In this document: piece by piece, positions 43,576-52,085 of the stretch
How the letters are laid out: each line of letters starts with the position of its first letter
Position numbering within the stretch: position 1 is the stretch's first letter
NCBI RefSeq assembly: GCF_009663395.1
Contig: NZ_QKNW01000001.1
Location: forward strand, 1,116,001-1,180,000
Source: Halosegnis longus
GTDB taxonomy: Archaea > Halobacteriota > Halobacteria > Halobacteriales > Haloarculaceae
DNA: 64,000 nucleotides
Direction of reading: 5' to 3'
The notes under the pieces: model-generated
The model's database searches: none
What the model was told of the DNA's origin: nothing
The model's input: only the letters and a program-made list of their open reading frames with translations
Translations under genes and position numbers: made by a program

Positions 43576-43882
43576 GCTTGTTAGTAGTTAACACGAGGTA
43601 TATAAGCCTGGCGAAATGCGGGACGGTAGCACACGTCGGGGTTTTCTCCGATTCGATAAAGCCTCCCGCGAAGGTTGGAATTCCGGTTGCTATCGGTGAA
43701 AACTGTGGACGACCGGCGAGCCATTCGCGGTTCTGTGTCATAGAGTCACACAATTCGGGATGAACACGCGAAAACCGCTATAGACGGGCTGTGGATGCCG
43801 TTGTCTCCACTATAGACGTATGTACGTCACTTGCTGGCATTGCGGTAAGTTTAACCACATCCAATATGTACAATCGTTCGAA
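43576..43882. promoter_or_regulatory. Non-coding region with dpp operon promoter and candidate operators
   Basis: About 300 bases between the divergent small gene and the peptide ABC operon. Near the operon: a direct repeat CTATAGACG (43778-43786 and 43810-43818, 32 bp apart) and a palindrome GACGTA-TG-TACGTC (43815-43828). The TATA-like AGTTTAACC at 43847-43855 sits about 30 bases before the ATG at 43883. The repeats are placed where a regulator could block or assist TFB/TBP binding. The left end holds the minus-strand promoter. Confidence 0.6.
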
Positions 43883-45757
43883 ATGGCTGAAGACAGCGAA
43901 TTCAAGCGCCGCCGGTTCCTGCAAGCGACCGGTGCTGCCGCCCTGACTGCAAGTGTTGCTGGTTGTTCGAGTGACGGTGGAGACGCCACTGCCACCGACT
44001 CCGGTGGCGACGGCGGAGACGGTGGCGACGACGGAACGGCCACCCCCGAGCCCTTCGACGGTCTCGACGCCTACCCGTACTCGCCCAACGAGACTGACGT
44101 TCAGAGCGCAATCGAGGTCATGGAGGAGGCCGGCTACGGTCCCGACAACACCTTCGAGCTCGACTGGCTCCAGTACACGAGCCCGACGTGGCTGGAGATG
44201 GCGAATACCATCCGCTCGCGCCTCCAGCAGGCCCACATCGAGATGAACATCAGCGAGGCATCCTTCTCGGAACTGCTCAGCACGACCGAGCAGGGTGACC
44301 ACGAGGCGTACACGCTCGGCTGGATCGCCGACTACCCGGCACCGCAGAACTTCCTCCAGCTCATCAACCCCGAAAACACCGTCTACGACGCGGAAGGGAC
44401 GACGCCGAACGGCGCACGCCTCTTCTGGTCCGAGGACGCGATGGTGGATTCGAGCGTCACCCAGTACATGAACGACGCCTACTCCATGATTACGGGCAAC
44501 CCGGGCACCTCCGACGAGGCCCAGCAGGCCCGCGACGACGCTGTCCCGATGATGGAGGAGGCCCTCTGGGAGTCGGCAGCCCTCATCCCGCTGTACAGCA
44601 GCGTCACGGAGTCGATGTGGTACGACTACGTCGACTTCAACCCCGCAGGCGGTATGGGACCGTCCCGCGCCAAGACGAACAACTCCGTCAACGCCATCGA
44701 GGGCCGCGACCGACTCAGCGGCACGTCGGCCACCCTCAGCACGCTCGACCCCGTCGCCTCCGGTGACACGGCGAGCGGTGCCAAGATCATGAACATGTTC
44801 GATGCGCCGCTCAACTACTTCAACGGCGAGGCGCAGGTCAGCAACCTCCTCGTCGAGGATTACGAGCTGAGCGACGACCTCACCACGTACACCTTCACGC
44901 TGAAGGAGGGTGTACAGTTCCACGAGGACTACGGCGAAGTCACGGCCGCGGACATGGTCTACTCGCTGCGCCGTCTCGCAGAGTCGTCCAACTCCTCGAA
45001 CAGCTCCTTCCTCACCGGCGACCTCAACGTCGTCCGAGAGGAGAACGACAACGGCGAGGTCGTGCCGGAGTCGATGGCCGTTGAGCAGACGGGCGAGTAC
45101 ACGTTCACGATGGAACTCGAAGAGCCGTTCGCGTACGCGCTCGAAATCATGGCCTACTCCGCCTTCTCCGCCGTGCCGGAGGGCATCGTGGGCGACATCG
45201 AGGGCTACGAGGGCGAGATGAGCTACGAAGAGTTCTCGCTCAACAACCCGGTCGGCAGCGGTCCGTTCCAGTTCGTCGAGTGGAATTCCGGCAACGGTGG
45301 CAACTTCACCTACGACACCTTCGACGACTACCACGGCGAGCCGGCCTCCTTCGACGGTATCGACCTGCAGATCCTGACGGACACGAACGCCATCTTCAAC
45401 CGCTTCATCAACGGGAACGCGGACACCGGTGGCGTCCCGACCTCCCAGTACGACCCGGACCTCGTCTCCGTCGAGGAGACCCAGGGCGCACAGGAGCTCG
45501 GTACCTACGGTCCCGTCGAGGAGAACGGCGTCACCTACCAGTACGCCCGCACGCCGACCATCAACACCTACTACGTCGGCTTCAACCTCGAGGAGGTTCC
45601 CCAGCCGGTCCGTGAGGCGATGGCGTACGTCATCAACCGCGAACAGTTCGTTCAGGAGGTCTTCCTCTCGCGCGGTTCCCCGTCGTACCACCTCACCCCG
45701 GCCCCGATCTGGCCCGGTGGCGGCGAGGCGTACCGCAGCCACTGGCAGGGCAACTAA
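43883..45757 (+). CDS. dppA: Peptide-type ABC importer binding lipoprotein with permuted domain order
   Basis: A 624-residue SBP_bac_5-like protein. RRRFLQATG (9-17) is a Tat signal, AGC a lipobox with C28, and 29-58 an acidic Gly/Asp linker. The order after that is abnormal. Residues 61-272 (AYPYSPNETDVQSAIEVMEEAGYG to the SVNAIE end) match the family's usual C-terminal third, with GWIADYPAPQNFL. Residues 273-624 match the usual N-terminal part: LSTLDPVASGDT (LDP at 288-290), TYTFTLKEGVQFH, AADMVYSLRR, GSGPFQF, VREAMAYVINRE, ending at HLTPAPIWPGGG where the C-terminal third would normally continue. Total length equals a normal protein. An in-frame upstream ATG (43820) lacks a signal peptide and is rejected. 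Confidence 0.85.
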   Translation: MAEDSEFKRRRFLQATGAAALTASVAGCSSDGGDATATDSGGDGGDGGDDGTATPEPFDGLDAYPYSPNETDVQSAIEVMEEAGYGPDNTFELDWLQYTSPTWLEMANTIRSRLQQAHIEMNISEASFSELLSTTEQGDHEAYTLGWIADYPAPQNFLQLINPENTVYDAEGTTPNGARLFWSEDAMVDSSVTQYMNDAYSMITGNPGTSDEAQQARDDAVPMMEEALWESAALIPLYSSVTESMWYDYVDFNPAGGMGPSRAKTNNSVNAIEGRDRLSGTSATLSTLDPVASGDTASGAKIMNMFDAPLNYFNGEAQVSNLLVEDYELSDDLTTYTFTLKEGVQFHEDYGEVTAADMVYSLRRLAESSNSSNSSFLTGDLNVVREENDNGEVVPESMAVEQTGEYTFTMELEEPFAYALEIMAYSAFSAVPEGIVGDIEGYEGEMSYEEFSLNNPVGSGPFQFVEWNSGNGGNFTYDTFDDYHGEPASFDGIDLQILTDTNAIFNRFINGNADTGGVPTSQYDPDLVSVEETQGAQELGTYGPVEENGVTYQYARTPTINTYYVGFNLEEVPQPVREAMAYVINREQFVQEVFLSRGSPSYHLTPAPIWPGGGEAYRSHWQGN

Positions 45758-45858
45758 ACTCACCCTGTCCCCGTAGTATCGACATATTCAACCATTCGGA
45801 ATACTCATCCACTCGCAAGCATTGCGTCTAACAATCGCACGATAACCACTCTCCAGAC

Positions 45859-45972
45859 ATGACACGCAACGAACGACACGCGTCTCCCGCAGGTCCCCGC
45901 AACGCGCACACGCCGGTGGCGAGACACGTAGACCGGCACCCCGACCGGACGGACGGTGACACAACAGCATGA
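45859..45972 (+). CDS. Possible 37-residue coupled leader peptide before dppB
   Basis: An ATG frame in the 211-bp dppA-dppB gap that ends TGA in an ATGA overlap with the dppB start (45969). The product is His/Arg/Asp/Pro-rich and unlike its neighbours in charge. Translational coupling is the only hint of use; it may equally be chance. Confidence 0.25.
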   Translation: MTRNERHASPAGPRNAHTPVARHVDRHPDRTDGDTTA

Positions 45973-47072
45973 ACAAGCTGGTGTATCTCGCGAAGCGAAT
46001 TGCGCTCGCGATACCTGTCGTCCTGTTCGGGCTCACGATGGCCTTTCTCATCCTGTACGCCGGTCCGCTCGACCCGGTGTACAGTATCCTCGGCCGCAAG
46101 GCGAGTGAGGCAGATATCCAGCGACTGCTCGTCGATCTCGGCTACCGGTACCCGAACGGCCAGGAAGTGCCCCTGTGGGACCAGTACCGCATGGTGATGA
46201 CCGACCTGTTCACGCTCAACTTCGGCCAGTCGTGGGTCGTCCAGCGCGGTCGCCCGATTATCGACCTCATCGGTGCACGCATGTCGGCGACCATCTGGCT
46301 CGGTTGGTGGTCCGTGGTCATCGCACTGCTCGTGGGAATTCCGCTCGGACTGTTTGCGGGGCTCCGCGCGAACACGTTCAGCGATTACTTCGCGTCTGCG
46401 GGCGGAATTCTCTGGCGTGCCATGCCGAACTTCTGGCTCGCGGTCATCCTCTCCGGCCTGCTGTCTGCGGGTGGCGCGCTCTCCTTCTACCGCGATTGGG
46501 GGGCCGACTACGGCCTTGCGACGAAGGTCGTCGGGACGCCACCGGAGGTGAACAACCTCTTCAATCCGATACCGCTGTTCGACGGGATCCCCGTACTCGA
46601 GATGCTGTTCCTCCCGATTCCCGAACTCCACAACATGGCCGTCGCGTTCAAGTGGATTCTCCCTGGCGCGCTCGTGTTGGGGTCGGCGTCGATGGGTAAC
46701 GAGGTCCGTATCGCCCGAACCGCCGTCTTGGAAAGTATCAACTCGAAGTACGTCGAGACCGCACGCGCGAAGGGCCTCTCCGCGCGCCGGATCGTATTCA
46801 AACACGTCGGGCGCAACGCGATGATTCCGCTGTTGCCGGTTATCATGGGTGAGTTCTACCTGCTCATCGGCGGGTCGGTGCTCGTCGAGGCTATCTTCGG
46901 TATCAACGGACTGGGGAGTCTGTATCTCAGAGCCATCTTCCAGACGGACATCCCCGTCATCATGACGCTCACGTTCATCTTCACCATCATCCTCGTGGTG
47001 TTCAACATCACCCAGGACCTGCTGTACACGATCGTCGACCCGCGTATCTCGCTCGACGAGGTCGAGGGGTAA
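45969..47072 (+). CDS. dppB: Peptide-type ABC importer permease (DppB-like)
   Basis: A 367-residue inner permease. The N-terminal helix (about 10-32) and five later hydrophobic segments fit DppB/OppB. The cytoplasmic EAA loop that docks the ATPase is YVETARAKGLSARRIVFKH (about 258-276). A periplasmic-side insertion between the early helices (about 34-85) and one between helices 3 and 4 (about 175-220) make it longer than the ~310-340 residues of bacterial DppB. It follows dppA after 211 bp and leads directly to dppC. Confidence 0.92.
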   Translation: MNKLVYLAKRIALAIPVVLFGLTMAFLILYAGPLDPVYSILGRKASEADIQRLLVDLGYRYPNGQEVPLWDQYRMVMTDLFTLNFGQSWVVQRGRPIIDLIGARMSATIWLGWWSVVIALLVGIPLGLFAGLRANTFSDYFASAGGILWRAMPNFWLAVILSGLLSAGGALSFYRDWGADYGLATKVVGTPPEVNNLFNPIPLFDGIPVLEMLFLPIPELHNMAVAFKWILPGALVLGSASMGNEVRIARTAVLESINSKYVETARAKGLSARRIVFKHVGRNAMIPLLPVIMGEFYLLIGGSVLVEAIFGINGLGSLYLRAIFQTDIPVIMTLTFIFTIILVVFNITQDLLYTIVDPRISLDEVEG

Positions 47073-47078
47073 CTTATC

Positions 47079-48617
47079 ATGTCAGATACAAATACTTCGA
47101 ACGACTCGTACGACGGCGACCAGTCGTCGCTCACCTCGCGTCTCGCCGCGAACCCGCGGCCGGCGCTCCGGTGGGCTGCCGTCGCCGCCGTTCTGCTCGT
47201 CGTCGAGTTCGGCGCGTTCGTCGGCGGCACGCTGACCGTCCTCCACGCGCTGGTGCTCGGCGTCACCGGGCTAATCGCTGCGACACTCGGTCTCACCATC
47301 TCGAAAGGCATCGAGACCAGCATCAACGAGGTTCAGGCGTCGGTACTCTCACAGATCGACAGCGTCCGGAGCACCGCACAGGGGATTCCGACGCTGCTCA
47401 GCCGGGAGACGATTCCGAACCAGGGCCACCGGCTCGGTCCGGACGGCCCGTGGGCGGAGACGTTCATGGGACTCGAACCGCGGCTCGCGTGGCTGCTCCG
47501 CGTCACGCTCATCGTCGTCTACGCGTTCATCGTCGCCTACTGGCTGTTCCGCGGCTGGGACATCTTCCGCATCTACTACCGACAGGCGGACTGGACGCCG
47601 ACCGACGACATCATCAACCGACTCCGCAGCCACCGCTGGGGCGTGTTCGGCGTCGTCATCATCCTCCTGTTTCTCACGATGGCGCTGTTCGGGCCGGCGC
47701 TCGGCCCGACGACCGTCGAATCGAACATCCAGTCGCCGTACGGACACTACGTCGAGTACTACTCCAACGAGACCGGACAAGTCGAAAACACAACCGTCGG
47801 AAACGCCAACTTCAACTCCAAGTCGAAGGGTGCCGGCACGAACGTGGGGCCGATGAGCTACGACAGCTTCGACCGGTTCCATCCGTTCGGGACACTCACC
47901 AACGGGCGTGACCTGTTCACGTTCATGATGGGCGGTGCCCGGACAACGATTACCGTCGTCGGTATCGCTATCGGACTGAGTGCGGGCATCGCGGCCGCGC
48001 TGGGCATGATATCGGCCTTCTACAGCGGCACCGTGGACCTGGGCGTCCTCACCGTGGCTGACGGGATTACTTCCGTCCCGCAGCTGCTCTTGCTCATCAT
48101 GGTGAGTGCAGTGTTCGCCGGCCACTGGATAACGAACGTGCTCAACGGCGGGTTCTTACTCGCGATACTGTTCGGCCTCACCGGCTGGCCGGGGCTGTGG
48201 CGCGCCGTCCGTGGCCCGGCCTTACAGGTCGCACAGGAGGAGTGGGTCGACGCCGCGGAGAGCTTCGGCCAACGGCCAGCGCTTATCATGTGGAAACACA
48301 TGTTCCCGTACGTGGTCGGCTATCTCCTCGTCTACGCGTCGATGTCGGCCGGTGGTATCATCATCGCGATGTCGGCGCTCTCGTTCCTCGGGAACGGACT
48401 CGGCGTGACCGCACCGACGCCGGCGTGGGGTCGCGCTATCGACCTCGGACAGAACTACGTCTCCACGCCGTCGTGGCACATCTCCCTGATTCCGGGGCTG
48501 ATGATCGTCGCGCTCGTCACGGGTGCGAACGCGCTCGGCGACGGACTGCGTGACGCCATCGACCCAGAGACCGACACCGGCGACGGTGAGCAGGCGGCCG
48601 CAGGAGGTGGTGCGTGA
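47079..48617 (+). CDS. dppC: Peptide-type ABC importer permease (DppC-like) with N-terminal extension
   Basis: A 512-residue permease, against about 280-300 in bacteria. The DppC core lies at about 185-495, with the EAA loop EEWVDAAESFGQRPALIMWKH split here around its Gly. In front of it is an extra ~180 residues: two adjacent hydrophobic segments (about 31-50 and 53-74), an amphipathic stretch, and another helix (about 137-157). A periplasmic loop insertion (about 208-255) carries Asn-rich sequence. The role of the extension is unknown; haloarchaeal DppC proteins often carry one. It starts 6 bp after dppB. Confidence 0.9.
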   Translation: MSDTNTSNDSYDGDQSSLTSRLAANPRPALRWAAVAAVLLVVEFGAFVGGTLTVLHALVLGVTGLIAATLGLTISKGIETSINEVQASVLSQIDSVRSTAQGIPTLLSRETIPNQGHRLGPDGPWAETFMGLEPRLAWLLRVTLIVVYAFIVAYWLFRGWDIFRIYYRQADWTPTDDIINRLRSHRWGVFGVVIILLFLTMALFGPALGPTTVESNIQSPYGHYVEYYSNETGQVENTTVGNANFNSKSKGAGTNVGPMSYDSFDRFHPFGTLTNGRDLFTFMMGGARTTITVVGIAIGLSAGIAAALGMISAFYSGTVDLGVLTVADGITSVPQLLLLIMVSAVFAGHWITNVLNGGFLLAILFGLTGWPGLWRAVRGPALQVAQEEWVDAAESFGQRPALIMWKHMFPYVVGYLLVYASMSAGGIIIAMSALSFLGNGLGVTAPTPAWGRAIDLGQNYVSTPSWHISLIPGLMIVALVTGANALGDGLRDAIDPETDTGDGEQAAAGGGA

Positions 48618-49673
48618 TGGCCGACGAACCGGTCTTGTCCGTCTCCAACCTCCAGACGGTGTTCCACACCGACAAGGAGACCATCCGCGCCGTCGACGGC
48701 ATCTCCTTCGACGTACACGAGGGGGAGACCGTCGGTATCGTCGGCGAATCCGGCTCCGGAAAGTCGGTCACCGCTCGCTCCATCATGGGTATCGTCGAAA
48801 GCCCCGGCGAGGTTCTCCCCGGCTCATCGATAAAGTTCAACGGCCGAGAGCTGACGGAGCTGTCGGACAAGGAGTACCGAGAGGTTCGCGGCAGCGGTAT
48901 CGGGATGGTGTTCCAGGACCCCCAACAGTCGCTGAATCCGGTGTACACCATCGGCAACCAGATTCGGGAGTCGCTTCGTATCAATCAGGGCCTTCGCGGC
49001 GAAGAGGCACGCCAGGAGGCAATCGAACTGCTCGAAGCGGTCGCGATTCCCGACGCGGCCCGGCGACTGGACGAGTATCCCCACGAGTTCTCCGGCGGGA
49101 TGCGCCAGCGCGCCGTCATCGCGATGATGCTCGCGTGTGACCCCGAGTTCCTCATCTGCGACGAGCCGACGACGGCACTCGACGTGACCATCCAGGCGCA
49201 GATTCTCGAACTCCTCGACGAGCTACAGGAAGAGCGGAACCTCTCGATTCTGTTCATCACCCACGACATGGGTGTCATCGCCGAAATCGCGGACCGGGTG
49301 AACGTGATGTACGCCGGCCAGATTATCGAGTCGGCCCCCGTCGAGGATCTGTTCGCGAATCCGAAACACCCCTACACCGAGGGGCTGTTGGGTGCGATTC
49401 CCGGCCAGCAGGCCGACGGTGAGTCGCTGCGGACCATCGAGGGCGACGTGCCGACGCCCAACGAGGAGGCGACGTACTGTCGGTTCGCGCCCCGGTGTCC
49501 GGAGGCGTTCGACGCGTGTGACGCGGTCGCGCCCGCACACGTCAGCGTCGGTGAGGACCCGGACCACACCGCGGCGTGTCTGTTGTACCCCGAAGAGCAG
49601 ACCGAGGAGGCGCGGGTCAGCCACCACCGGTCGCTCGGAGCGAAGTCGCGTGAACGACCCGCAGGTGATGTGA

Positions 49674-49681
<8 letters not shown>
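48617..49681 (+). CDS. dppD: Peptide-type ABC importer ATPase (DppD-like)
   Basis: A 354-residue ATPase. Walker A GESGSGKS (about 40-47), Q-loop FQDPQQSLNP, signature FSGGMRQR, Walker B ICDEPTTALD and H-loop ITHD. The C-terminal oligopeptide-transporter domain holds four cysteines (CRFAPRC, later CD and CLLY) where DppD enzymes may bind a [4Fe-4S] cluster. A Shine-Dalgarno AGGAGGTGG (48602-48609) supports ATG 48617; a GTG one codon upstream is possible. It overlaps dppC by one base and dppF by 8. Confidence 0.93.
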
Positions 49682-51000
<1,319 letters not shown>

Positions 51001-51008
<8 letters not shown>

Positions 51009-51434: not shown

Positions 51435-52085
51435 ATGGTCGAGACGAACCCCGACGAAAATCCGGACGCGCACGACCGCGCGGCCCGCGGGACCGACGCC
51501 GTCAAGGACGCATGGCAGCGGACCATCGAAGACACCCGAGCGATGGCTGCCGACCGCGAGGAGGCCGGCTACGAGACGCTCGTGTTGTTCGCCGACGACA
51601 CGGCCCCGGCCATCCCCGAACACGGCGACGACGATGACGACAGCTGGGGCTTCTCGTATCTCCTCCCGAAGAGCGACCGCGCCGAGTTCGCCGACTTCGT
51701 CGCCGACGCGGAGTTCGACGAGACGGGCGTGTATCAGGCGCGAGAGCAGGGTGACGTGTTCATGGTCGTGGAGTGTATCGACATGGACGCCGAGCGCGTC
51801 CTCTTCATCGCCAGCGCCTACAAGATGCGCACCGCCGTCGACCTGGTTCGGACCGCGATGGACCGCGACGAGATGTACACCCACGTCCGTGACCTGAACG
51901 GCGATATCGTCGACACCATCCACCACGACGACCCGTCGGGCTTCTTCCCGAACCCGGACGAGTACTACGCCTTCGAGCCGGAACAGCTCAACCAGATGCC
52001 CGGCGGACTCCCGGGCCAGGACCCGGACGACGAGCCGGCCCCAGAGAGCGACGACGACGCGGCCAGCTCCGAGGACGACGCCTAA
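51435..52085 (+). CDS. Uncharacterised haloarchaeal protein with acidic tail
   Basis: A 216-residue soluble protein. The N-terminal half is a helical, acidic stretch; the middle (about 65-145) has a folded look with SYLLPKSDRAEFADFV and MDAERVLFIASAYKM; the last ~30 residues are an Asp/Ser/Glu-rich tail. TATA-like ACCATTTATC lies at 51402-51411. I do not recognise its function. Lies between the dpp operon and the CBS gene, same strand. Confidence 0.68.
   Translation: MVETNPDENPDAHDRAARGTDAVKDAWQRTIEDTRAMAADREEAGYETLVLFADDTAPAIPEHGDDDDDSWGFSYLLPKSDRAEFADFVADAEFDETGVYQAREQGDVFMVVECIDMDAERVLFIASAYKMRTAVDLVRTAMDRDEMYTHVRDLNGDIVDTIHHDDPSGFFPNPDEYYAFEPEQLNQMPGGLPGQDPDDEPAPESDDDAASSEDDA

Follow-up and report, generated by a model that had tools for sequence, protein, structure and literature searches.

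Circular permutation of a dpp-operon binding lipoprotein in Halosegnis longus and its apparent recurrence among haloarchaea

In the 64,000-nucleotide stretch of Halosegnis longus DNA analyzed here (the window), the lipoprotein gene that heads a dpp-type operon carries the motifs of the last third of its binding domain in front of those that normally come first, raising the question of whether the gene is a genuine circular permutant of a substrate-binding protein (SBP) and, if so, how such an order arose. A sequence-only reading had placed the open reading frame (ORF) at 43883-45757 and had assigned to it a Tat signal and a lipobox ending in Cys28, and the ORF, the KRRRFL motif, and the cysteine are all located accordingly. 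The ORF runs from an ATG at 43883 to a stop codon at 45755-45757, with a further in-frame ATG at 43820, and is made up as follows.

43883..45757, + strand: gene for a circularly permuted SBP_bac_5 (DppA/OppA-like) lipoprotein of 624 aa, from the ORF, profile order, and orthologues
43883..43966, + strand: Tat signal peptide (KRRRFL) and lipobox ending in Cys28, from sequence and alignment
43967..44071, + strand: acidic Gly/Asp/Thr-rich lipoprotein linker, residues 29-63, ending in FDGLDA before YPYSPN, from sequence
44072..44674, + strand: canonical C-terminal third, now first, residues 64-264, circular columns ~344-538, Pfam columns 258-362
44330..44332, + strand: Asp150 in GWIADYP, aligned with OppA Asp419, from sequence alignment
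44675..44725, + strand: fused old C- and N-ends, residues 265-281, from junction alignment
44726..45754, + strand: canonical N-terminal two thirds, now last, residues 282-624, Pfam columns 2-259

The residues R9, R10, F12, L13, A26, G27, and C28 are invariant in alignment A1, and among them are the twin arginines and the lipobox cysteine; the Pfam TAT_signal score of the protein is 15.1 bits, under the cut-off of 22.7 (hmmscan). On the opposite strand, an ORF of 661 codons (43778-45763, −) spans the whole SBP gene, as expected from high G+C codon usage, and is not taken as a gene.

The order of the two parts is settled by profile alignment. When the halves are compared separately with Pfam SBP_bac_5 (PF00496) by hmmscan, residues 66-163 of the first match columns 258-362 (E 4.9e-13) and residues 319-618 of the second match columns 2-259 (E 2.4e-46), so that the model coordinates are swapped and the protein departs from the collinear order of the profile, the second part of which stands first; the family score is 205.3 bits, above the gathering cut-off of 32.4. 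A doubled (circular) profile was built by aligning 21 canonical haloarchaeal relatives and concatenating the alignment with itself (547 columns per turn), such that a canonical protein gives one turn from column 1 and a circular permutant one unbroken turn from elsewhere. The window protein aligns as a single unbroken full turn, covering columns 342-888 of 2 × 547 with 651 bits. Its permuted domain measures 561 residues versus a median of 557 in the canonical relatives, in keeping with the earlier remark that the two halves sum to a normal length. The same reading had the chain ending right after PGGG...QGN, where a YPY module normally comes, and in canonical relatives PGGG...HAEESYPYGYN is indeed continuous at the precise point where the window protein stops and starts. 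In the three-frame translation of the region downstream of the stop codon (45758-45968), there is no recognizable remnant of the displaced part. Borne out by both the profile order and the full-turn alignment, the window SBP is a circular permutant of SBP_bac_5, as first proposed from last-third motifs preceding early ones, although two boundaries given then require correction: the permuted part begins with YPYSPN at residue 64 rather than at residue 61, and the point equivalent to the canonical start falls at about residue 278 rather than at about 273.

A genome search returned matches that are collinear with the window protein over its full length, at 97, 66, 62, 62, 60, 50, and 47% identity, and a full-length match with the window order is present in 26 of the 392 genomes sampled from the haloarchaeal order. 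Named carriers include Halosegnis rubeus, Halolamina, Haloquadratum walsbyi, Halorhabdus, Halonotius, Halobacterium salinarum DSM 3754, Halorubrum distributum, Halapricum, and Halosimplex. The 39 ORFs of the window type start between columns 331 and 343, mostly at 340-342, and the 34 canonical ORFs at about column 1; of the 39 window-type orthologues, 37 have a junction of 40 residues, counted from column 525 to column 14. Among 148 genomes of the phylum outside the order, no full-turn match was obtained, and the out-of-order hits span only approximately profile positions 230-615. Judged from these sequences, the window arrangement is that of an old, widespread haloarchaeal clade.

Two simpler accounts of the swapped order have to be weighed against this record. 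The first, that a canonical gene was rearranged during assembly or scaffolding, is the alternative that the sequence-only reading had itself named; nothing was found in its favor, and we give it practically no credence: orthologues with the same order were found in many independent genomes, which rules out an artefact, and order, junction, and operon are identical in independently assembled genomes from 97 down to 47% identity, including H. salinarum and complete Halosimplex chromosomes. The other account, that the permuted gene is a decaying or nonfunctional copy in whose place a canonical paralogue functions, might draw on the second, canonical-order SBP_bac_5 protein found in several genomes (for example, G002, G008, and G025), but in the genome of the window itself nothing else matches the SBP apart from one signal-peptide hit, and the gene is intact over many genera, where it heads an intact importer operon. 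Moreover, both halves are under strong purifying selection. Against the 97% relative, the mature part has a dN of 0.015 and a dS of 0.191, and the 33 junction codons carry three silent changes and no amino-acid change; the values against the 66% relative point in the same direction but are less reliable at such a distance. Decay is rejected on this selection and conservation and is very improbable.

The SBP gene is followed by a complete set of importer genes.

45969..47072, + strand: dppB-like permease (BPD_transp_1)
47079..48617, + strand: dppC-like permease
48614..49681, + strand: dppD-like ATPase (ABC_tran and oligo_HPY)
49674..51008, + strand: dppF-like ATPase

The order SBP-dppB-dppC-dppD-dppF is found in almost every sufficiently long locus, whether its SBP is canonical or has any of three cut points, and in a few loci the SBP stands alone within the stretch read. 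Since this order is common to canonical and permuted loci, the permutation affected the leading SBP gene and left the rest of the operon as it was. A DUF7529 gene lies after dppF (window 51435-52085), and many loci, canonical as well as permuted, have a relative of it after the operon; in three loci from Haloquadratum and Halorubrum (L035, L053, and L061), the permuted operon has another dpp-type operon, of lower similarity, immediately upstream.

With regard to function, the GWIADYP motif of the window protein aligns with GWCADY of OppA, placing Asp150 at the position of OppA Asp419, which we take to contact the amino terminus of the ligand, and the aspartate of GW[IGV]ADYP is kept in all 39 window-type proteins. 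Given this conserved aspartate and the dpp operon, peptide import is supported as the predicted function; the score against the DppA equivalog NF043070 is 72 bits, below its cut-off of 1005. The protein would be exported by its Tat signal, anchored by lipid at Cys28, and folded as the usual two-lobed binding protein, with a short loop connecting the old ends and a surface loop carrying the new ones; it would bind peptides in the usual cleft and deliver them to the neighboring DppBCDF importer, a fold and a ligand that we infer. Both AlphaFold models (pLDDT 46 from a shallow 24-sequence alignment and 33 from the single sequence) are too poor to use. Tat export carries folded proteins, and the Tat-lipobox signal therefore implies a chain folded before export; this, together with the long flexible lipoprotein linker, plausibly makes new chain ends tolerable. 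Haloarchaeal SBPs, as described for Haloferax volcanii, nearly all have such a signal (PMC2841640).

The window's cut point is one of several. The doubled profile sorted 99 ORFs into 34 canonical proteins, 39 cut at column 342, 24 cut at about column 462, and two cut at column 110. The column-462 proteins are SBPs of the same operon (loci L010, L014, L016, L018, L090, L121-L137, L139, and L140), and in their main clade the binding-site aspartate is replaced by serine within WSW (GWIWSW), which suggests another ligand for these proteins. The column-110 form (L054:4710-6758, L087/L138) reads as a permutant of a permutant. A second, more distant SBP_bac_5 family, numbered on its own circular profile of 555 columns, has cuts at 358 (six ORFs) and 330 (four ORFs) among 21 canonical relatives, and the permutants inspected have their old ends fused and a Tat/lipobox signal in front (loci L029, L091-L093, L109, L111, L113-L115, and L118).

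Trees indicate that these forms have more than one origin. In an SBP tree for which every protein was first rotated to canonical order, the first family needs four architecture changes: the window type arises once, with the column-110 type nested inside its clade, and the column-462 type arises twice, as one large clade and as the protein from genome G020, a single origin for all column-462 proteins being rejected (AU p = 0.0004). An independent tree of concatenated DppB, C, D, and F proteins, themselves unpermuted, gives the same picture except for L055, a divergent window-type locus that sits loosely on a long branch near the base. The second family needs three origins, and a single one is rejected (AU p = 5e-7), but long branches make this count less firm. 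In total, there have apparently been about seven separate permutation events, four of which rest on two independent gene sets; some of the steps could be reversals to canonical order, each of which would still be a permutation.

A possible trace of how such an order can arise is found in the column-110 proteins of Haloglomus irregulare (L054) and genome G406 (L087), in which the former window-type C-end YQEHWQG is followed by YDGGDTGGSGFDGLSG and then by YPYSPN. No insert is present at this position in the canonical proteins encoded in the same operon; one canonical relative, the distant L027, has a longer loop there that is unrelated. The insert resembles the Gly/Asp-rich linker that precedes YPY in window-type proteins, which reads ...DGTATPEPFDGLDA|YPYSPN in the window, ...GGEGFQGLDS|YPYG in L075, and ...NEEFTGLDS|YPYSP in L067. 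The simplest reading of these sequences is that the column-110 form descends from the window form and keeps an internal lipoprotein-linker relic as the footprint of tandem duplication and deletion: two window-type genes would have stood in tandem, the second copy would have lost its signal and retained part of its linker, and the outer parts would have been deleted.

Permutation by duplication is a described route (PMC3320104), and it may be extended to the window's own event, in which a canonical gene would have been duplicated in tandem and in frame, with the redundant outer parts then deleted and the signal and linker of the first copy kept; the same process would have been repeated across haloarchaeal SBP_bac_5 genes. 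The sequence-only reading had proposed just this course, with the outer ends lost and the export signal kept, and it gains from the relic in the nested Haloglomus/G406 permutant, but it finds no direct trace at the window's junction, where no linker relic is recognizable. Two other accepted routes (PMC3320104) are fission into two genes followed by re-fusion in reverse order and transfer of the C-terminal third to the front by cut-and-paste, and the loci read contain no duplicated intermediate (no SBP ORF of more than 850 aa); nevertheless, an internal relic such as that of the column-110 form is to be expected if a whole lipoprotein gene was duplicated, and no half-genes were met incidentally; such routes are rather unlikely. 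The window gene is very probably a genuine, fixed circular permutant of a family-5 SBP that would serve the adjacent DppBCDF and that most likely arose by in-frame tandem duplication and deletion. Whether permutation is adaptive is a further matter. If the lipid anchor or the chain ends came to lie on another lobe, docking, ligand choice, or folding might change and be selected, and the roughly seven origins in two related families, the two arrivals at the column-462 cut, and the Asp-to-Ser change in its main clade would fit; however, the aspartate change is also present in some canonical-order relatives and was therefore not caused by permutation, and Cys-to-domain linker lengths overlap between the architecture types, so this reading seems rather doubtful. 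A broader account, in which recurrent and sometimes convergent permutation (about seven events at several cuts, one of them re-permuted) was enabled by Tat pre-folding on long linkers and in some cases selected for anchor repositioning, is conceivable but less likely than not.

Naturally occurring circular permutants tend to be regarded as the outcome of one ancient event each. In the present case, one family in one archaeal class appears to offer a series of independent permutations at different cuts within the same operon and transporter; un-permuted relatives are available for comparison, and one lineage preserves a putative molecular fossil of how permutation came about. Several questions thereby become accessible to direct test: at which positions a two-lobed binding protein can accept new termini, whether the demands on chain order are looser under Tat export, and whether the placement of the anchor makes a difference to ABC importers. 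To annotation tools, permuted SBPs show up as no more than split or partial domains, and a permuted SBP is present in model organisms, Halobacterium salinarum among them. In the open-access literature searched, no account of family-5 or haloarchaeal binding proteins as circular permutants was found, and an earlier description elsewhere is possible.

Compared with DppA/OppA (SBP_bac_5, PF00496; cluster C), both halves of the window protein are homologous over their full length, the aspartate of GWxADY (OppA Asp419) is kept, and the gene heads a dppBCDF operon, whereas the two parts stand in the opposite order; likewise, in sequence relatives of solved structure, the window's second part is N-terminal and its first part lies towards the C-terminus, which is the canonical order. 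Canonical haloarchaeal Dpp SBPs, such as that of Haloarcula japonica (L056), share the operon, the domain length, and about 45% identity per segment but start at circular column 1 rather than 342. The column-462, column-110, and second-family forms are also permuted SBP_bac_5 Tat lipoproteins with fused old ends, differing in that their new ends lie elsewhere and that their origins appear mostly independent. Beyond this family, natural circular permutation in saposin/swaposin and DNA methyltransferases has been attributed to duplication and truncation (PMC3320104). In contrast to these, the window SBP is a secreted lipoprotein whose signal must stay in front, and one haloarchaeal lineage appears to retain an internal linker relic.
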